This document shows positions 6,894-64,000 of a stretch of 64,000 nt of DNA, piece by piece. A model generated the notes under the pieces. That model searched no databases and was not told the origin of the DNA. It saw only the letters and a list, made by a program, of their open reading frames with translations. The DNA is taken from NCBI RefSeq assembly GCF_002896855.1, contig NZ_CP021850.1, positions 3,125,665-3,189,664 on the forward strand, written 5' to 3'. Each line of letters opens with the position of its first letter. Position 1 is the stretch's first letter. Origin of the DNA: Clostridium thermosuccinogenes (GTDB taxonomy: Bacteria; Bacillota; Clostridia; Acetivibrionales; DSM-5807). A program made the translations under genes and the position numbers.

Positions 6894-7689
6894 GCAGTAC
6901 TACAACTTTCTGCACACGCCGTTCACCCGGGATATACCGGAGAAGCATTTGTATAGCAATCCGGAGCTGGAAGAGGTCTGCAGCAGGCTTGAGTATGCGG
7001 CCCGGAACCGGTTGTTTGCAGTGATAACGGGAGATGTTGGTACAGGAAAGACCACAGCCATAAGGAAGTTTGTTGGGGCGCTGGACAGCAACCGGTACAA
7101 GGTAATGTACATAAGCGATTCGGCGTTGACACCGAGGAATTTTTACTGGGAAGTATTGAACCAGCTGGGATGTGAAGCGAAATTCTACAGGAGCGATGCA
7201 AAACGACAACTAACGAGAGAGATCAGCAACCTGATTGAAATACAGAGACGTATTCCTATAATCATCACAGATGAGGCACACCTACTTTCAAGGGAGATGC
7301 TGGAGGAAATCCGGTTTTTACTAAACTTCAGGATGGATTCGTATAACCCAATGAGTTTAATCCTGGTAGGCCAGAGTGAGTTGAAGGACATCCTGAAGAA
7401 GCAGATATATGAGGCAATATGCCAGCGAATAGATATCCGATATCATATGATGCCATATGATCGGCAAAGAACCGGTGAATACATAAGAAAGCACCTGGAG
7501 TATGCAGGAGAAAGCCGGGAGATATTTACGGATATGGCGGTAGACGAGATATATGAATATTCTCATGGAGTACCGCGAAAAATCAACCGGGCGTGTACAG
7601 CTTGCCTTTTACATGGGGCACAGGTACAGAAAAAAATCATAGACGATCATGTGGTAAGGCTTATTGTTGAGGAAGAATTGAACTGGTAG
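6886..7689 (+). CDS. ExeA/TniB-like AAA+ ATPase of the transposon
   Basis: A transposition-helper ATPase likely to choose targets and stimulate the transposase, as TniB, IstB and MuB do. Walker A is GDVGTGKTT (near 48), Walker B is IIITDEAHLL (near 127), and arginine-rich sensor regions lie further on. It opens with FYNFLHTPF-type residues typical of ExeA-like proteins. I prefer the ATG at 6886; a GTG at 6877 would extend it by three residues. It overlaps the transposase end by a few bases. A perfect 10-base inverted repeat follows 7 bases after the stop. Confidence 0.85.
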   Translation: MFEQYYNFLHTPFTRDIPEKHLYSNPELEEVCSRLEYAARNRLFAVITGDVGTGKTTAIRKFVGALDSNRYKVMYISDSALTPRNFYWEVLNQLGCEAKFYRSDAKRQLTREISNLIEIQRRIPIIITDEAHLLSREMLEEIRFLLNFRMDSYNPMSLILVGQSELKDILKKQIYEAICQRIDIRYHMMPYDRQRTGEYIRKHLEYAGESREIFTDMAVDEIYEYSHGVPRKINRACTACLLHGAQVQKKIIDDHVVRLIVEEELNW

Positions 7690-7696
7690 TTAATAT

Positions 7697-7726
7697 GCCC
7701 TGTCCGTATACATCTGCGGACAGGGC
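7697..7726 (+). terminator. 10-bp perfect hairpin after the transposon ATPase
   Basis: GCCCTGTCCG and CGGACAGGGC pair around a 10-base loop directly after the ATPase stop. No T-run follows, so this is either a weak terminator or an mRNA-stabilising end. Confidence 0.5.
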
Positions 7727-7741
7727 TAATGAGCAAAACTA

Positions 7742-7786
7742 GCGGTCAAAAAGAATGAGCAGATTGCGGTCAAAGAGGCCGAACAG
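7742..7786. repeat. two 21-bp direct repeats at the transposon right end
   Basis: Copies at 7742-7762 and 7766-7786 share GCGGTCAAA..G...GA.CAG at a 24-base period. Repeated binding sites at the ends are normal for transposases of the Mu/Tn7 type. A related inverted copy is seen at 4776-4796. Confidence 0.6.
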
Positions 7787-7872
7787 CGACACTATGTCAT
7801 TAAATAGCATAGTATAACCACTAGTACCTTTTAAAGGCATATAACAATGAAAATGCTGATGCCTATCCAAAA

Positions 7873-8568
7873 TTACTGTTCAAACCCGAATCTGTAACCT
7901 ACACCGTGAACTGTAAGAATGTATTCAGGTAGCTTAGGATCTGTTTCTATTTTGTGTCTTAAATTCTTAATATGTGTATCAACTACTCTGCTATACCCGG
8001 AATAACTATCTTTAAATGCATCTTTAACCAGTTCTTCCCTGGTTAAAGTTTTATTAGAATACTTGATTAAAGTCATTAACAATTTATATTCATTTGGGGT
8101 TAGCTTAACCAATTCTCCATCCTTTTTGACTTCATACTTAATAGTATCCACTACCAAATCATCATTATTAAAAGAAACGCGGTTATCTAGAGGAATAGAA
8201 TCTTCAGTTGACCTTCTTAACAATGCCGAAACTCTTGCCACAAGCTGTCTCGGGCTAAAAGGCTTGGTTACGTAATCATCCGCTCCTATGTGCAATCCAT
8301 TAAGTATATCTTCTTCTTTTACTTTTGCTGTTAACATAATAATAGGCACTGCAGATTTTTTTCTAATAATAGTGCAAACTTCTTCACCCGGTATATCAGG
8401 AAGCATAAGGTCTAGTATTATCAGTGACGGTATAATCTCGTCAAACTTTTGAAGAGCCTGCTTTCCGTCAAAGGCTGTGTATACAGTATAGCCGCTTTTT
8501 TCAAGGTATGATTTCACTACGCTTATAATATTTTTCTCATCATCAACAACAAGAATGTCTCTCTTCAT
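7873..8568 (-). CDS. orphan OmpR-family response regulator
   Basis: A 231-residue regulator with receiver and winged-helix domains. The acidic DDE, the phospho-acceptor in LIILDLMLPD and TKPFSPRQL are all present, and it ends in LTVHGVGYRFG. The whole protein runs parallel to the regulator at 4008-4703. AAGGAGAGG lies before the ATG. A partner kinase would be expected directly downstream on the minus strand, but the next 180 bases hold no kinase sequence and then the transposon begins. It is therefore either a true orphan, perhaps fed by the neighbouring kinase, or the survivor of a pair that lost its kinase when the transposon entered. Confidence 0.9.
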   Translation of the reverse strand: MKRDILVVDDEKNIISVVKSYLEKSGYTVYTAFDGKQALQKFDEIIPSLIILDLMLPDIPGEEVCTIIRKKSAVPIIMLTAKVKEEDILNGLHIGADDYVTKPFSPRQLVARVSALLRRSTEDSIPLDNRVSFNNDDLVVDTIKYEVKKDGELVKLTPNEYKLLMTLIKYSNKTLTREELVKDAFKDSYSGYSRVVDTHIKNLRHKIETDPKLPEYILTVHGVGYRFGFEQ

Positions 8569-8728
8569 TATCTATTCCTCTCCTTCCTTTTTACCTTTTT
8601 GAATATTTATCTGCATTGTGATATGCTCAGATTACTAATTGCGTTATAATAACATCAAAGTGTTAGATAAGGATAACTAACACTTTTAAAAGCAGATGCT
8701 TATGAAGTTGTACAGCTGCAAACAATAT

Positions 8729-9148
8729 TTAGAATGAGATAACATCAACCTGGCTGTTACTATCACTTTTAAAACTTACAATAATTTGATTAGGCATACA
8801 AACAATTGTTTTTGGATAGCCATCAATCCATCCAGTATTTGAACATATGGCTTGGGGGCAAATAGTTCTGTCCATAGGCAGCATTCTGACTTTTCTTTCT
8901 TTTACTTCAATATATCCAATCTCTCCATCAAACTCGAAATCATATATACCATTTTTATTCAAATCATCTTGTGTAAGTTGTAATAGTACTGCCCCTTTCC
9001 GCTGTACAACAACAACGTCATCTGGAGATTTTTTATGGTTACGTGTAAATACCCCGTATAACACAATTGTTATAATTAAAATCAATGCTATCAGAATCAC
9101 GTCATATGATGTAAAAACATTCATAAGACATAGACTTTTCTTTTTCAT
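8729..9148 (-). CDS. NusG-domain-II membrane-anchored protein
   Basis: A 139-residue protein with one N-terminal membrane helix (about 15-35) and an extracytoplasmic beta-rich domain. The pattern is that of the NusG_II family: YDFEFDGEIGYIEV, then ICPQAICSNTGW, then TIVCMPNQIIV. The conserved cysteines (CPxxxC and a later CMPN) suggest a disulfide or cofactor site. The function is not established; relatives often sit beside membrane redox or vitamin-transport genes. AAAGGGGA precedes the ATG. It lies 106 bases after lgt on the same strand, so the two may share a transcript. Confidence 0.75.
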   Translation of the reverse strand: MKKKSLCLMNVFTSYDVILIALILIITIVLYGVFTRNHKKSPDDVVVVQRKGAVLLQLTQDDLNKNGIYDFEFDGEIGYIEVKERKVRMLPMDRTICPQAICSNTGWIDGYPKTIVCMPNQIIVSFKSDSNSQVDVISF

Positions 9149-9254
9149 TGAAGTCCCCTTTTCTTTATCTCACTTCTCCTTTTCATGTTTTAAAATACAT
9201 CTTCTGCTTCCTATTATATATCCTATGTGTGAAGATTCTATGAAGAATAAGCTC

Positions 9255-10100
9255 TTATGCTTGAATTGTATAAAAAATTATCAAAGACACTGCTATCAAT
9301 GCGAGAGTAATCAAAACATCTTTTACCCAATCCAACGTACGAATAACTGCTTCCCCATTACTTTCGTTCGGATTGTCAACTCTTTTCTTTTTTGCAAAAA
9401 TCATAAATATTACCGCCCCTATTATTAGCAGCACACTTAATAGGTGAGATATTGAGAACCAACCCACAACCGACGGATTGCTCCTAAATAACTCCACTAT
9501 ACTTCTGTTAATTGCAAAAAGTATTACATACCATATAAAAAGCTGTCCGTCATATTTGATAGATTTACGTTTTCTCCATAAGATGAAAAACACAGCATAG
9601 TTTAGCAGGAATTCATAAACCTGTGCCGGGTGCAGCAGCTGATCCTGGCGCTCTATGCCCCACGGACGTGGTATGGACATGACTTTTCCGAATACATCAC
9701 AGCCAATTCTTCCAATTCCCTGCCCTAAAATGATGCCTGGTGCTATTGCATCAGCATATTTATAAAAGCTTAATTTATTATTCTTCCTGAAATAGAAAAA
9801 TGCAAAGATAGAGGCTCCCAGTAAGCCCCCATGTATGGATAGTCCTCCTTCATTTATTTTTATTATTTCTGCCGGGTTGTTGAGATAATAGGATAAATCA
9901 TAAAAGAGAATATAAAACACCCTTGCACCAACCACTGCTGAAATTATCGAGTATAAAGCAATATCAAACAACTTCCCAACATCAAGCTTTTTTCTTTTTA
10001 CCTCAAGATAGGCAACAAATATCCCGGCCAGTATGCCTAAAGCGATCATTACACCAAAGAAATGAACCGGTATGCCAAATATATGAAACAGAACTTTCAT
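9255..10100 (-). CDS. lgt: prolipoprotein diacylglyceryl transferase
   Basis: Moves diacylglyceryl from phosphatidylglycerol onto the lipobox cysteine of prelipoproteins in the membrane. The 281-residue protein has about seven membrane helices. It has the GGLSIHGGLLGA segment and a GQGIGRIGCDVFGK segment matching the Lgt signature, with the conserved Arg and Gly residues. The signature loop is shorter than in the common GRIGCFLNGCCYG form, so this is probably a second, divergent Lgt. Predicted substrates are not encoded next to it. AGGGGAG precedes the ATG. Confidence 0.85.
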   Translation of the reverse strand: MKVLFHIFGIPVHFFGVMIALGILAGIFVAYLEVKRKKLDVGKLFDIALYSIISAVVGARVFYILFYDLSYYLNNPAEIIKINEGGLSIHGGLLGASIFAFFYFRKNNKLSFYKYADAIAPGIILGQGIGRIGCDVFGKVMSIPRPWGIERQDQLLHPAQVYEFLLNYAVFFILWRKRKSIKYDGQLFIWYVILFAINRSIVELFRSNPSVVGWFSISHLLSVLLIIGAVIFMIFAKKKRVDNPNESNGEAVIRTLDWVKDVLITLALIAVSLIIFYTIQA

Positions 10101-10187
10101 TGTATTCTCCCCTCTACATCCCTATAGGTAGCCTAAAAAGGATGATCTAAGCAATTACCCTTATATATCCACTACTTTTTTTGTGGC

Positions 10188-10838
10188 TCATAAAACTCGT
10201 CTGACCTTATGACTCAATCGTATTGGAATAAAGGCAGGCACCAGCTTACGATACTCTACATATTTCTCACCAAAGAGTTCCACCATCTTCTTTTCTTCCT
10301 TTTTTGCAAGTCTTGCATACATAGTCAGCAGAATTGGTGCCATAATTATGGTAATTATCGTTGGCCACTGTATAAGAAATCCTATAATCATTAGTGCAAA
10401 ACCGCTGTACTGGGGATGTCTTACATACCTATAGATTCCATGTGTCACCAACTCACCATTGCCGGCATGTATTCCTTTCCATCCAAGAGCGATCACAATC
10501 AGGCCACTGAAAATGATAACATTGCTAAGCGGATGCAATATGGAATAAACTACTGTTGAACCTCCTGCAAGGGCAACCCACAAATGTCCATTCATATGAG
10601 TAAACGGATCAAGAACCGGATATTTGCTTCCCAAAATAGATGTTAAAAAATATATTGTAAGCGGAAATCCAAACATTTCACTAAACAAAGCTACCATAAA
10701 TGCTGCAAATGCACCTAAAGTACGCCAGTCTTTTTTTGTCGCAGGTTTGAAGGCCGTAAAGGTAAAAATACTGAATATGAGAATATTAAAAATAACTGAT
10801 CCCCATAATCCATACGCGTACTCATTATCGCCATTCAT
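10188..10838 (-). CDS. isoprenylcysteine/phospholipid methyltransferase-like membrane protein
   Basis: A 216-residue polytopic membrane protein. The C-terminal half carries the SAM-binding pattern of the ICMT/PEMT family: HGIYRYVRHPQYSGF, then EEKKMVELFGEKYVEYRK. Five to six helices are visible. The family methylates a small lipophilic or thiol substrate at the membrane; the substrate here cannot be inferred. AGGGAGTGAG precedes the ATG. It follows the Spo0E-like gene and precedes lgt on the minus strand, with short gaps. Confidence 0.8.
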   Translation of the reverse strand: MNGDNEYAYGLWGSVIFNILIFSIFTFTAFKPATKKDWRTLGAFAAFMVALFSEMFGFPLTIYFLTSILGSKYPVLDPFTHMNGHLWVALAGGSTVVYSILHPLSNVIIFSGLIVIALGWKGIHAGNGELVTHGIYRYVRHPQYSGFALMIIGFLIQWPTIITIIMAPILLTMYARLAKKEEKKMVELFGEKYVEYRKLVPAFIPIRLSHKVRRVL

Positions 10839-58336: not shown

Positions 58337-59269
58337 TTATCTTTCCTGTTCCCTTTGCCTTTTTTTGTACCAGCTCTCAAGTAATTGGACAATCAAATCT
58401 TCCTTTTGCTTTTCGGTAAAGTTTTTAGGGAAAAATCGGTCTATACGCTCACGCTGAATGTGGAACTTTTCTTTTTGGTTAGGCTTTTCCTCAGTAAGGA
58501 TGGAAAATATGACATCAATATTCAGTCTGCCGTCCTGGCTTAGTCTCTTCATTCTCTGCGCTTGTGAGAGTGATGGAGTACAGTCCTCTGATTGCATGGT
58601 CTTATATAGGTCTTGCTGTTCATTTTCGGTCAGGTAAGAAATTTCAACAGCAGGATTAAATGCTATTCGTTTATCGTCCACCATTTCAAGAATAGAGGGT
58701 ATAAGCTCGGTTAAGCGGATGTAACGGTATATTTGATTTCTGCTTTCACCACTCTTATCAGCAAGTTCTTCGTATGAATTTAACTTTTTCCCAAGTTGGG
58801 AAAAGGTTAAATCTGTTCTTTGTCCCTGCCTATTCATGGCTTCCAGCTTCATCTTATATGCAAAAGCTTTTTCGCTCGGAAGAATGTTTTCCCTTTGCAG
58901 ATTGCTGTCAACCATGATAATTGTCGCCTCATCATCATCCAGATTCCGGACAATACATGGCATGGTTTCACGGCCTGCAAGCTCACTTGCCTTTTTGCGC
59001 CGGTGTCCTGCTACCATTTCATAGCCGCCGTCTGCTTTTGGCCGCACAAGACCGGGAACCAAAACGCCATATTGCTTTATGCTATCAGCCATCTCCAGCA
59101 TAGCTTCATCCGCCTTTACCTTAAAAGGATGATTAGGAAAATCACTGATTTCTGACAGAGGAATATCCAGTACCTTTTCACGTTGACTATCTACGCGGCT
59201 TTCCTCCGTGGAAAACAGGTCATCTACTGATGTCAGTTTTATGCTGTCTCTTGGGTTGCTCTTTGCCAA
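58337..59269 (-). CDS. parB: ParB-family partition protein
   Basis: A 310-residue ParB/Noc-type protein. The N-terminal CTPase/ParB domain has HPFKVKADEAMLEMADSIKQ, GVLVPGLVRP and MVAGHRRKKASELAG. The central helix-turn-helix has KSGESRNQIYRYIRLTELIP. The start is a TTG at 59269 behind GGAGGTGCAG, overlapping the parA end by 50 bases in another frame. It should bind a centromere-like site and stabilise the extrachromosomal form. No parS was found by eye. Confidence 0.85.
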   Translation of the reverse strand: MAKSNPRDSIKLTSVDDLFSTEESRVDSQREKVLDIPLSEISDFPNHPFKVKADEAMLEMADSIKQYGVLVPGLVRPKADGGYEMVAGHRRKKASELAGRETMPCIVRNLDDDEATIIMVDSNLQRENILPSEKAFAYKMKLEAMNRQGQRTDLTFSQLGKKLNSYEELADKSGESRNQIYRYIRLTELIPSILEMVDDKRIAFNPAVEISYLTENEQQDLYKTMQSEDCTPSLSQAQRMKRLSQDGRLNIDVIFSILTEEKPNQKEKFHIQRERIDRFFPKNFTEKQKEDLIVQLLESWYKKRQREQER

Positions 59270-60044
59270 TGTCCTGCACCTCCTTTGTAAAGGCCTGATA
59301 GGCTTTAGCAGCAATACCATGTGGATCATGCATATAAATGCTTTTCCCCTCGGCACTTGTTTCAGCAGCCCGGATTGATAAGGGAATTTCCGTTTGGAAT
59401 ACTCGTAGCTTGTCGCCGTAGTCCCGTCGTAAAATAAAGGAAATGTCCTTTGCAAAGTTGGTACGATTATCTACCATTGTGAGTAGAACACCGTCGATGG
59501 TCAGTTTAGGATTGATTTGCCGCCTTACCCTGGCAATAGTCTGCAGTAACTGTGTCATTCCTTTGGCTGGCAGGTAATGAGCCTGTACCGGAATAATCAC
59601 GCTGTCTGCAGCGGCAAGAGCATTGATTGTCAACATACCCAAACTCGGCATACAATCAATCAGCACATAATCATATTTGTCTTTTACCGTATTGATATAT
59701 GTACGCAGTACCGTTTCACGACTCATGGTGTTAACCAGTGAAACCTCAATGGCAGACAGTTCTATATTGCCCGGCATAAGATCCACACCTTCCGCATGAT
59801 GAAGGATGCCTTCATCTGCGTTGTACGGTTCCTCCATCATGATTTTAGTAAGGATAGTGGCCAATGAAACGGGCAGATTGTCTGGTTCCTGGTAACCCAG
59901 TGAATCCGTCAGATTACCCTGCGCGTCAGCGTCTACCAGGAGCACCTTCTTACCTTGTGCAGCAAGACCGATGCCAAGATTAACTGTTGTGGTCGTTTTG
60001 CCTGTGCCACCCTTCTGATTAGCAAGGGCGATTACTTTTGACAC
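59220..60044 (-). CDS. parA: ParA/Soj-family partition ATPase
   Basis: A 274-residue ATPase that segregates DNA with ParB. It has deviant Walker A KGGTGKTTTT (near 11), VLLVDADAQGNLTDSLG, then YDYVLIDCMPSLGMLT. GTG start behind AAAGGAGG. It heads the parAB-Tad stretch. A terminator hairpin separates it from the cargo gene upstream. Confidence 0.92.
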   Translation of the reverse strand: MSKVIALANQKGGTGKTTTTVNLGIGLAAQGKKVLLVDADAQGNLTDSLGYQEPDNLPVSLATILTKIMMEEPYNADEGILHHAEGVDLMPGNIELSAIEVSLVNTMSRETVLRTYINTVKDKYDYVLIDCMPSLGMLTINALAAADSVIIPVQAHYLPAKGMTQLLQTIARVRRQINPKLTIDGVLLTMVDNRTNFAKDISFILRRDYGDKLRVFQTEIPLSIRAAETSAEGKSIYMHDPHGIAAKAYQAFTKEVQDIGKEQPKRQHKTDISR

Positions 60045-60065
60045 TTAAAACTCCTCCTTTCACGC

Positions 60066-60103
60066 AAAAAGCCGCTTGCTTTATTTGAAATAAAACAAAC
60101 GGC
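60066..60103 (-). terminator. long hairpin plus T-run upstream of parA
   Basis: A 16-base stem (60071-60086 with 60088-60103, two mismatches) is followed by TTTTT on the minus strand. It ends cargo transcripts before parA. The remaining bases to 60192 hold nothing I recognise. Confidence 0.7.
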
Positions 60104-60192
60104 ATATATATGAAAAAAAGAATACAGACAAAAGCTGCATCCTCTTTTCATTACATTAAATGATAGAGTTATTCATAATAAAAATATAAGCA

Positions 60193-62676
60193 TCATTTTT
60201 TAAGCAAACTATTATCCTCTGGGTAGCACGTAAAAATAAATTTTTTTAACAGCTCCTTTTCCTCGATATCTAAATTTCCGTTTTCATAAATCCACATATG
60301 CATTGCTTTCCCTATCGCATATGAAAGTTCTTTGCCTTGCTGCTCACTAATATTGTTTCTTGACACATTAGGAATTATTTTCTTATTTGTAACATTTACA
60401 ACTAGCCCCTTTAATTCTATTCCTTCAACCAGAAAGGGAATTTTGATCCTAGCGCCTGAAATTAAAACATTCTTAATGTATATAAAGTCCGTATAATTAA
60501 ACCAGTACATACCCTTAAATCCGATATCCGTATTGTAAGGAAGAATTTTATCGCCAGTACCGTGAATAACCTTCTTTTCTTCTAAAAAAGTATATGTTGG
60601 AGCGTTACTGGAATGTCCAACCTGCCTTCTAAAGTCTGATAAAGTGTAATTCCCAACGATACGATCATAGCCATTGTCGATTAGCACAGAATCGTTATAT
60701 AATGCTGTATTGGCTGCTATAATGTTTGCATTTTCATAATTGATTTTACCCAAAGCGGCATCAAAGTCTTCTAAAACGTCATATGCTTTTTCGAAATCAT
60801 CTTCTTCAGATGACGCTATTATAGGTAGACGTAAAAACTTAATTGTACCATCTTTGATATATTCTTTTAATAAGACAGGAGAGCTTACATCTTGCTCTGG
60901 CAAGATCTCATTTCTGGCTTCATGATATATAAAACTTTCATCAGCATATATATCAGAGAAATTTTTCCAGTATGTAATGCCTTTATAATTGAAGTTTAAA
61001 GCCACTTGAATTCCATCAAAATACTTATCTAGTCTTATGCTTTCAGGATATATTGAGCCAAATTGCTGAAGTTCTATAACTTTAGGAGTTGTTTTCCCGT
61101 CTTTTGAGCTTATTAAACTTATGGGAATTTGGCAATCAATAAAATTTTTCTTTATAAAAACTTCTACATTATCTTGACTATTCCCAAAGACGGAAATAAA
61201 TTGATCATAATCAAGAATTATTTCCGTTCCCTGCGAACGTGGTACATCTTCATACGTCAAGCAAATATATTCACTACTTTTTTCAAATTCAATTTTGTTA
61301 GCTCTATTTTCACCATAATATTTTGTAATAACATTTACTTTATCTGACAGCATAAAGCATGCTAAAAACCCTATTCCATAATTTCCAATAGGCGTATATT
61401 TATTTCCTTTAAACAAGTAATCATCTGAAACATAATAAGAAACGCCTACATTTAAGAAATACTTTTTCAAAATATCAACTGACATTCCTCGGCCATTATC
61501 AAATATAATTACTTGTTTTCTATCCTGATCTAAAATGATATTGATAAAAGGTTGGTATGGACTGTACTTAAATTCATCTTTGTTGTTTGCCTCCTCTTGC
61601 ATAACCATACAAGCGTCTATGGAGTTTTGAATTAATTCCCGTAATCCATATTTTTTATCTCCATAGATATTTTCACCCATTAGCAAACTTGTAACGGCTT
61701 TATAATCAAGAGAGAGCTTGAAATCAGAAAAGTTAAATCCCTTTGTCCTTATCTTGTTATGTACCATCGTGCTTATGGATAAAAGATACCTTTTATCTCG
61801 AAAGGTTTCCGAGTAATCAACAGCTCTTTTTAATTCATCATTTATTGAATCAAAATACTTAAGGAGCTTTCTATGTATACTGGGATTTGAACTCTCGCCA
61901 TAAAATTCTATGTTTTTTCTTCCGGTTTTTGGATTAACAGCGATCTTGTCTTTATTCTCAATAACAAAATGCTGCTTCCATTCTAAATCACCATAATCCT
62001 TTGGACTCAAATATTGATATAAATAAAGAGGCGCTCTTTCTTCATCTATATCCAAATAATCAGCTATTCTGAGGAGTAAAGCAATATATTGAGAATTCAA
62101 CGTCCAATTGCCTTTCATTTGGTCAAGAGATAGATTACTTGTGATCCACTCAAAGTTTTCATTGTGTGCTGCACATATTTTTGCTACATCATCTTTAAAA
62201 GAAATGTTAGTATAGCCTGGCACAATGAAACATTCGTTATCCATCTTCATAATGTGATTATATGATCTCATACCATGAATAGGACGGATACATTCCTGTA
62301 ACGCTACAGTTTCATCCCTATATTTCTGTAGAACTAATGAGTATTTTCTTTCTGTGATGTCTCCCTGCTCTTTTTTGATGTAATCAATTTCTTGTTCACT
62401 AACAACCATTCCAATATCATGGAGTAACGCTGAATAAAGCATAACGACTAGTTCCAAATCGCTAAGTTGATCCGGATAGTCACATAAATCATACATATAG
62501 TCTGCTACATTTAGAGAATGTAAAATATCATGTCCAGTATAGTTTGAAAAGACACGATTGATCTTGGGTAAGAAATTTACTGCGTAATCGTATATTTTAA
62601 TGACTTTATCTAAAAAAGAGCTATTCCTACTTAAAAGTAAAGAATATGCTTTCGTATCTTTAATTGTCTTAGTCAT
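60193..62676 (-). CDS. HD-domain plus HSP90-like ATPase protein
   Basis: An 827-residue cytosolic protein. The N-terminal HD-type phosphohydrolase domain (about 40-230) has HDILHSLNVADY (near 49), LLHDIGM (near 88) and a later IADYLDIDEERAP. The GHKL/HSP90-like ATPase domain (about 320-480) has LRELIQNSIDACMV (near 345), FDNGRGMS (near 395) and GNYGIGFLACF (near 433). A long C-terminal region (about 500-827) follows. Both active sites look intact. This HD-plus-HSP90 layout is known in bacterial accessory regions, possibly in conflict systems, but I know of no proven function. Strongly AT-rich. AAGGAAA precedes the ATG. Confidence 0.8.
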   Translation of the reverse strand: MTKTIKDTKAYSLLLSRNSSFLDKVIKIYDYAVNFLPKINRVFSNYTGHDILHSLNVADYMYDLCDYPDQLSDLELVVMLYSALLHDIGMVVSEQEIDYIKKEQGDITERKYSLVLQKYRDETVALQECIRPIHGMRSYNHIMKMDNECFIVPGYTNISFKDDVAKICAAHNENFEWITSNLSLDQMKGNWTLNSQYIALLLRIADYLDIDEERAPLYLYQYLSPKDYGDLEWKQHFVIENKDKIAVNPKTGRKNIEFYGESSNPSIHRKLLKYFDSINDELKRAVDYSETFRDKRYLLSISTMVHNKIRTKGFNFSDFKLSLDYKAVTSLLMGENIYGDKKYGLRELIQNSIDACMVMQEEANNKDEFKYSPYQPFINIILDQDRKQVIIFDNGRGMSVDILKKYFLNVGVSYYVSDDYLFKGNKYTPIGNYGIGFLACFMLSDKVNVITKYYGENRANKIEFEKSSEYICLTYEDVPRSQGTEIILDYDQFISVFGNSQDNVEVFIKKNFIDCQIPISLISSKDGKTTPKVIELQQFGSIYPESIRLDKYFDGIQVALNFNYKGITYWKNFSDIYADESFIYHEARNEILPEQDVSSPVLLKEYIKDGTIKFLRLPIIASSEEDDFEKAYDVLEDFDAALGKINYENANIIAANTALYNDSVLIDNGYDRIVGNYTLSDFRRQVGHSSNAPTYTFLEEKKVIHGTGDKILPYNTDIGFKGMYWFNYTDFIYIKNVLISGARIKIPFLVEGIELKGLVVNVTNKKIIPNVSRNNISEQQGKELSYAIGKAMHMWIYENGNLDIEEKELLKKFIFTCYPEDNSLLKK

Positions 62677-62765
62677 AAGATTTTCCTTTCTTGTGTATAT
62701 CCAGAATAGCGATACTCTTACTCATATACGTTCATTTTTACTTTAATACACGTGCATATACGAAA

Positions 62766-62968
62766 TTAAATATCATTGTTTTTAATCTTTTTATATCTAC
62801 TATCTTGGGGCTTTCTTAAATCTTTAGGTATTGCCCAACTACTTCCAAAGCGAATAACTCCTTGAATTTTATTTTGTGCACATAATACCTGACATGGCGT
62901 ACAGTAACCCCCCAGTTTACCGATGCTTCTTTAACTGTAATATATTCAATTACTACATTCTCCCCCAT
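62766..62968 (-). pseudogene. small helix-turn-helix protein with an apparent frameshift
   Basis: Reads MGENVVIEYITVKEASVNWG, then VTVRHVR, and then the family pattern resumes in another frame: VLCAQNKIQGVIRFGSSWAI, then PKDLRKPQDSRYKK. Together these make a typical 67-residue excisionase-like HTH protein (WG.t.R.Vr.LC...I.G..R.G..W.IP). One G appears lost in the GTCAGG-TATTATG stretch (about 62890). Without the shift the frame ends in unrelated residues. This may be a mutation, a sequencing error or programmed frameshifting. The start codon is uncertain. Confidence 0.7.
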
Positions 62969-63099
62969 AGGAATTATTTGGCACAAGCTAATTATATATC
63001 GCTTTTGCGAATAATAAAAGACATTATAACTGCTATAGAATATAAAAAAGGAAATGTCAGATACAATCAACACTCCCATAACATTATCAAACTCTTGTT

Positions 63100-64000
63100 C
63101 TAACCTATACTGCATTGCAATGTTTGAATAAATTCTCTCATAAGGCATATAGAATCTCTTAGCTGTTCAAAGGTATATCGAGGATTATGTTTATTTTCAG
63201 GGTGATGGATCTGGTGTCTAATATATTCGGTCAGAATTATCTGCTCTTCTTTTGTACTACCGTTTCGGAGAATCTTTATATACCTCATTGTAGGTTTTCC
63301 TGCTTTATAGGCTTCTAGTTGCCCTTCGGCCTCAATAAAGCCATAAAGCTCATTATGATATTCTTCCGTAACTTCAGAAAATGCCAGAAAATTTACTTCA
63401 TTTAGGGAGGGATAAGGTAATTGACCTGGTAAAACAGTTTCAACTGTTTTCGATCCGCAATTAGCTGAGATTAAGCGTAGGTTCTCAAAATTTAGTTCCT
63501 TTACTAAGCTTGCACTATGGGTCGTTATAATTACTTGTGTGTTAGGAGATTCTGCAAGCGTTAAGAAAGCTCTGATCAATGCTTTTTGGTGTTCAGTGTG
63601 TTGTGATGTCTCTGGTTCCTCAATCGCATAAATAATGCTTGTACTATTTCTATCTTCTTTTCTCCGTTCTGCTTCCGCTCTGAAGAAATTTAGAAGAATT
63701 AGCCGTTTGACACCACTTCCCCTTTTATTAATTGGAATCCCCTCATCACCTGAAATAGAAACGTTTTTAAAGACATCTCCCCACTTAAGGCTTTCAACAG
63801 ATGGGATTACAGGGTTCAAACTATTAGCTACATCAGGGTTCATCTCTCGTAACTTTTCAAGCGTTCTGTCAGACACTTCTTTAAGCTTAGTTTCTACTTC
63901 ACAAGCAATTTCACTGAGTGTTTGTCTTAACACGTCGTTGTTCAAGATTTGCTTAACTGCTTCCTTAAGTGGATCCTGTACCTCGCTATCACCATCGCTA
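63100..64000 (-). CDS. AAA ATPase with C-terminal RX4H motif, N-terminus beyond the window
   Basis: About 300 residues are visible, open to the right edge, so the Walker A lies outside. It has an ABC-like signature GSGVKRLILL, Walker B IYAIEEPETSQ, H-loop ITTHSASLV, then a C-terminal helical part. That part holds EEQIILTEYIRHQIHHPENK, where RHQIHH (63202-63219) fits the RX4-6H motif of HEPN nucleases. OLD/AAA_21-type ATPases with nuclease tails are common in phage defence. It lies immediately upstream of the HTH and HD-HSP90 genes on the same strand. Confidence 0.75.
   Translation of the reverse strand, partial: SDGDSEVQDPLKEAVKQILNNDVLRQTLSEIACEVETKLKEVSDRTLEKLREMNPDVANSLNPVIPSVESLKWGDVFKNVSISGDEGIPINKRGSGVKRLILLNFFRAEAERRKEDRNSTSIIYAIEEPETSQHTEHQKALIRAFLTLAESPNTQVIITTHSASLVKELNFENLRLISANCGSKTVETVLPGQLPYPSLNEVNFLAFSEVTEEYHNELYGFIEAEGQLEAYKAGKPTMRYIKILRNGSTKEEQIILTEYIRHQIHHPENKHNPRYTFEQLRDSICLMREFIQTLQCSIG

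Follow-up and report, generated by a model that had tools for sequence, protein, structure and literature searches.

In Clostridium thermosuccinogenes, the interval between the parA gene of a conjugative element (ICE) and the host gene rlmD is likely a defence-cargo slot that holds two independent modules, both predicted to be candidates for abortive infection. One module is a protein of 827 aa that joins an HD domain to an HSP90-type ATPase (HD-HSP90), and the other is an AAA_15 ATPase of 543 aa that ends in an R-x4-H motif (AAA-RX4H). The DNA analysed, here called the window, is a stretch of 64,000 nucleotides that corresponds to bases 3125665-3189664 of the 4.73-Mb chromosome. An earlier note on the window had read three genes beside parA as possible defence cargo acting as one unit. 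Their reading as cargo for defence at a mobile element's edge gained support both from what sister elements hold in this slot and from the genes around HD-HSP90 elsewhere, whereas their reading as one unit did not stand.

The right part of the window is occupied by the ICE, which ends just past the window edge. Three open frames adjoin parA (59220-60044, minus strand, an open frame that forms the left border of the slot) and share a strand, as the earlier note had described. Past 64 kb, on contig L002, the AAA-RX4H gene is completed and followed by rlmD. G002, a genome that belongs to the same order but to a different family, carries a copy of the ICE that is 100% identical over window positions 59000-64000 (G002:C1:4001908-4006908), with 97-99% identity in the adjoining ICE backbone. 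At the sequence level, this 5-kb identity across two families points to a recent transfer of the cargo. The sequence shared by the two ICE copies extends to L002:6822, a position within the 3' end of rlmD, and this boundary common to both copies places the right end of the ICE at window-equivalent position ~65157. Since the shared sequence stops within this gene, rlmD is the attachment gene, and the cargo slot runs from parA to rlmD. The left attachment repeat of the ICE was not found within the window. Near the parB end, the G002 copy contains an insert of ~2.2 kb (L033:4364-6540), and the window is uninterrupted at this place (~58640). The described AT-richness of the cargo was also confirmed, with a GC content of 32.0% for HD-HSP90 and 35.4% for the AAA gene versus 42.8% for the ICE backbone; the lowest-GC backbone stretch of the same size in the ICE has 33.9%.

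HD-HSP90 is encoded at 60193-62676 on the minus strand. Its designation as an HD plus HSP90-like protein agrees with Pfam, which detects an HD-CE domain (PF24391, residues 43-283) with an E-value of 2e-45 and 156 bits, against a gathering score of 27, followed by HATPase_c_3 (1.8e-10). The HSP90-type GHKL ATPase spans residues ~313-540, and a variable C-terminal region covers residues ~540-827. In an alignment of 13 proteins, the metal-binding set of the HD domain (H49, H53, H86-D87, H171, and D206) and the ATP-site residues E347, N351, D393, G395, G397, G434, and G436 are invariant. Given this invariance, both the HD enzyme and the ATPase look active, as predicted from the alignment. The AlphaFold model is good over most of residues 1-540 and poor over residues ~540-789. 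The predicted fold of residues 313-540 matches HSP90 N-domains with Z scores of 17-18 (for example, Z 18.1 and rmsd 3.4 over 197 residues). Because HSP90 entries filled the Foldseek rows, this search scarcely probed the HD part and the C-terminal region by fold. The C-terminal region, with pLDDT values mostly between 22 and 45, shows no confident fold. In every relative compared, the HD and ATPase parts are more identical than the C-terminal part. For example, the C-terminal third of the relative in L078 shares 19% identity with the window protein, versus 41% for the HD part and 47% for the ATPase. HD-HSP90 was not found in annotated phage records.

HD-HSP90 resembles two groups of known proteins and differs from both. 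With HD-CE proteins, including HD-CE-NACHT-WD40, it shares the full metal-binding set and the N-terminal position of the HD domain, as seen in locus L036. However, the ATPase of HD-CE-NACHT-WD40 is a NACHT STAND ATPase, whereas that of HD-HSP90 is of the HSP90 type and is followed by the variable tail. With HSP90/HtpG, it shares the N-terminal GHKL ATPase fold and the E, N, D, and glycine motifs. In contrast to HtpG, an HD effector stands in front of this domain, and the middle and C-terminal domains of HSP90 gave no signal in HD-HSP90 by hhalign or shuffled Smith-Waterman comparison, in a region where the model is of low pLDDT. HtpG identity was ruled out, since HD-HSP90 scores 87.5 bits against an equivalog cut-off of 371. 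A segment that resembles by eye the HSP90 middle-domain loop LPLNVSR (IPNVSRNN) was supported neither by hhalign nor by shuffle tests.

The small HTH gene between the two large genes proved not to be intact. The 110-aa open frame at 62816-63148, which is HTH-like in its 3' part only, is a broken form of an HTH gene, and the remnant itself, just upstream of HD-HSP90, lies at 62767-62968 (minus strand). Relative to the intact 72-aa HTH_17-like gene of L037 (L037:106-324), the window copy has a 1-base deletion at ~62891 that cuts the HTH in mid-domain. The L037 protein matches HTH_17 with 4.6e-5, just under the curated cut-off, and its neighbouring HD-HSP90 is 96% identical to the window protein. 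The G002 copy, being 100% identical in this region, shares the break. Such damage to the HTH gene could indicate that regulation of the HD-HSP90 module is decaying.

These observations bear on an alternative in which the HTH gene and HD-HSP90 form a two-gene module of regulator or antitoxin and effector, decaying here by frameshift, with the AAA gene independent. HTH genes of the same family do lie upstream of HD-HSP90 in its closest relatives, intact in L037, and L038/L118 have a related gene in the corresponding position (74% over 57 aa). However, more distant loci (L077, L078, L115, L034, L035, and others) lack an adjacent HTH gene, and HD-HSP90 has stayed intact and 100% conserved in two genomes despite the broken HTH. 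Moreover, all loci with such an HTH gene belong to a single ICE family, and the gene may therefore be part of the ICE end. A two-gene module of this kind is thus rather unlikely, and HD-HSP90 is better read as a module of one gene.

The predicted function of HD-HSP90 comes from its context, beginning with the slot itself. The parA gene is 97-100% identical in G002, G014, and G024, where it stands beside the same or different cargo, and G015 has an 89% relative. Three of these genomes (G024, G014, and G015; parA 89-99% identical) represent sister elements with other cargo. In G024, the parA-rlmD interval, whose rlmD end was also seen, holds an ABC-3C system (L109:5684-10360) with matches to CTD1 (5.8e-38), MComp1 (8e-9), and an LmuB-like ATPase (2.4e-64). 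An FRG-domain protein lies beside parA in G014 (L108:12282-13415), and Type III-like restriction genes, for a DNA methylase and ResIII, take this place in G015 (L110:375-5027). With such occupants, the parA-rlmD slot has the look of a defence hotspot. In G024, two further proteins (551 and 460 aa) are encoded at L109:10510-13462, between parA and the ABC-3C system; they have no Pfam or PADLOC match and are possible cargo.

Elsewhere, relatives of HD-HSP90 repeatedly neighbour mobile-element and defence genes. In L077, the neighbours are serine recombinases and lysis genes, and the relative in L078 is flanked by an ABC/LmuB-like cluster and a phage repressor region. Others are found beside integrases and a trio read by eye as ABC-3C-like (L115), beside Gabija (L058; GajA/GajB, 5e-233 and 1e-236), beside Type I restriction genes (L067), and ~5 kb from Shedu (L066). 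In L035, a TIR-receiver gene (L035:6152-7105) lies directly upstream of the HD-HSP90 relative (7298-10462) on the same strand, and its product is a possible alternative partner of HD-HSP90. In L036, HD-CE is the N-terminal domain of a NACHT-pentapeptide-WD40 protein. The presence of HD-CE on both NACHT-WD40 and HSP90 proteins is consistent, as far as domain composition goes, with an exchangeable effector.

HSP90-type domains and the HD fold also have housekeeping roles, and an ICE carries stability genes of its own, such as parA/parB. HD-HSP90 could accordingly serve the maintenance of the element or its host, for example, by working as a chaperone under stress while its HD part, as a regulatory phosphodiesterase, acts on a second messenger. 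However, its relatives occur in 6 of the 391 genomes of the class (E<=1e-30), a patchy distribution, and they recur beside prophage integrases and defence genes; the fusion of HD-CE to NACHT-WD40 likewise speaks against a maintenance role, which we regard as distinctly unlikely. Patchy spread and such neighbours form the usual picture of mobile anti-phage genes, and a defence function of HD-HSP90 is predicted from this context.

The AAA-RX4H gene extends over window-equivalent positions 63100-64731 (L002:4765-6396, minus strand), with its C-terminal 299 residues inside the window (63100-64000). The encoded protein matches AAA_15 with 1.5e-88. As the earlier note had claimed, it ends in RX4H; the window protein reads IRHQIHHPEN, and the tail motif TExIRHQIHHPE..HN is invariant in four relatives. 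Residues R505, H506, Q507, I508, H509, and H510 (invariant, n = 4 proteins) thus form R-x4-H with a polar residue after R, and R-x4-6-H with such a residue is the signature of HEPN RNases (PMC3710099). What makes the tail HEPN-like is this motif and its place where a predicted helix ends. The fold was not confirmed, as the model, built from three sequences only, has a pLDDT of 42 and the 543-aa protein has no match to Pfam HEPN. The tail also found no sequence match among plasmids or in the PDB.

Among known systems, AAA-RX4H is closest in layout to the ABC-ATPase-HEPN proteins (PrrC/RloC-like; ERFG_01251 group; Anantharaman et al., 2013; PMC3710099). Both have an N-terminal ABC-type ATPase, an R-x4-H at the C-terminal end in which a polar residue follows R, and a location on mobile elements. 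They differ in that the ATPase of AAA-RX4H is of the AAA_15/OLD type and no restriction system adjoins it; the likeness is one of motif and layout. PARIS also shares the AAA_15 ATPase, and the AriA model of PADLOC, the defence-system finder, matches the AAA protein (HD-HSP90 has no PADLOC model). This match is non-specific because PARIS detection relies on general AAA_15/AAA_21 profiles together with DUF4435 (PMC9122126). The partner protein AriB (DUF4435) has no match anywhere in the genome, and PARIS identity was rejected. OLD nucleases have the AAA_15 ATPase in common with AAA-RX4H as well, but their C-terminal TOPRIM has no match in the 543-aa protein, and this identity was likewise rejected. 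In the same kind of scan, a related ATPase in E. coli plasmids carries an OLD-like TOPRIM where the window protein has RX4H. Because related ATPases carry either TOPRIM or RX4H, this ATPase appears, from its domain arrangements, to be paired with different effectors.

The independence of the two modules is indicated by a survey of the DNA around 32 HD-HSP90 loci, 31 of them besides the window. The AAA-RX4H gene stands beside HD-HSP90 only in G000 and G002, which hold two copies of one ICE, and it is absent from ~29 of the other loci; the contig of L037 ends at the AAA stop codon and is uninformative in this respect. The conserved co-occurrence of the two large proteins that the earlier note had proposed to look for was thus not seen among the 31 other loci beyond G002. 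Homologues that fail to co-occur, the outcome which that note had named as speaking against a unit, are largely what the survey showed. In a Lutispora member of the same ICE family, also at rlmD (L038), a 75%-identical HD-HSP90, an HTH gene, and a 204-aa gene are present and the AAA gene is missing. This 204-aa gene (L038:7312-7926), between the HTH gene and HD-HSP90, has no Pfam, NCBIfam, or PADLOC match. L038 also has a gene for a group II intron-type reverse transcriptase, placed between its HD-HSP90 and parA genes. Conversely, relatives of AAA-RX4H with 56-66% identity have no HD-HSP90 nearby in L053, L054, and L074 (the last being a short contig), and HD-HSP90 is missing from genome G050, which does have AAA-RX4H. 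That the three genes are one defence system, with the RX4H ATPase and HD-HSP90 working jointly under the control of a shared HTH regulator, is highly improbable. The genes are adjacent, on one strand, similar in composition, and kept together within 5 kb of 100% identical DNA by two genomes that belong to different families. However, outside these copies of a single ICE the two large genes were never found together, and here they are separated by 423 bases and the broken gene. A hairpin resembling a terminator also follows directly on the AAA stop codon, although hairpins of this kind are expected by chance.

As two independent modules, the proteins would act by different routes. HD-HSP90 is probably a single-protein abortive-infection system. 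Its fast-diverging C-terminal region probably senses an infection cue; because no confident fold is available there, this sensor role is one that we infer. Upon the cue, the HSP90-type ATPase would close as an ATP-driven clamp, and closure would switch on the N-terminal HD phosphohydrolase. The HD enzyme would then destroy a nucleotide or nucleic acid needed by the cell, and the infected cell would stop. For ABC-HEPN proteins, it has been proposed that the ATPase holds the RNase in check until infection (PMC3710099). By analogy, the ATPase of AAA-RX4H most likely restrains a putative suicidal RNase until infection occurs.

Each of these enzyme classes is already known, and the HD-CE domain is already named in Pfam. 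The literature searched, which left subscription papers and preprints aside, contained no experimental account of the HD-CE-HSP90 type, and no defence assay for HD-HSP90 or the AAA-RX4H protein was found in it. More tentatively, HD-HSP90 may represent a widespread and uncharacterised class of single-gene immune receptors, in which an HSP90-like clamp takes the role of STAND/NACHT, between a C-terminal sensor and an HD nucleotide hydrolase that brings about growth arrest. If so, HSP90-type ATPases would join the STAND and ABC ATPases as regulated switches by which bacterial immune systems control a suicide enzyme, and the HSP90 version would have the HD hydrolase in common with the NACHT version. 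For finding defence systems in Clostridia-like bacteria, the parA-rlmD slot of this ICE is also a practical starting point.
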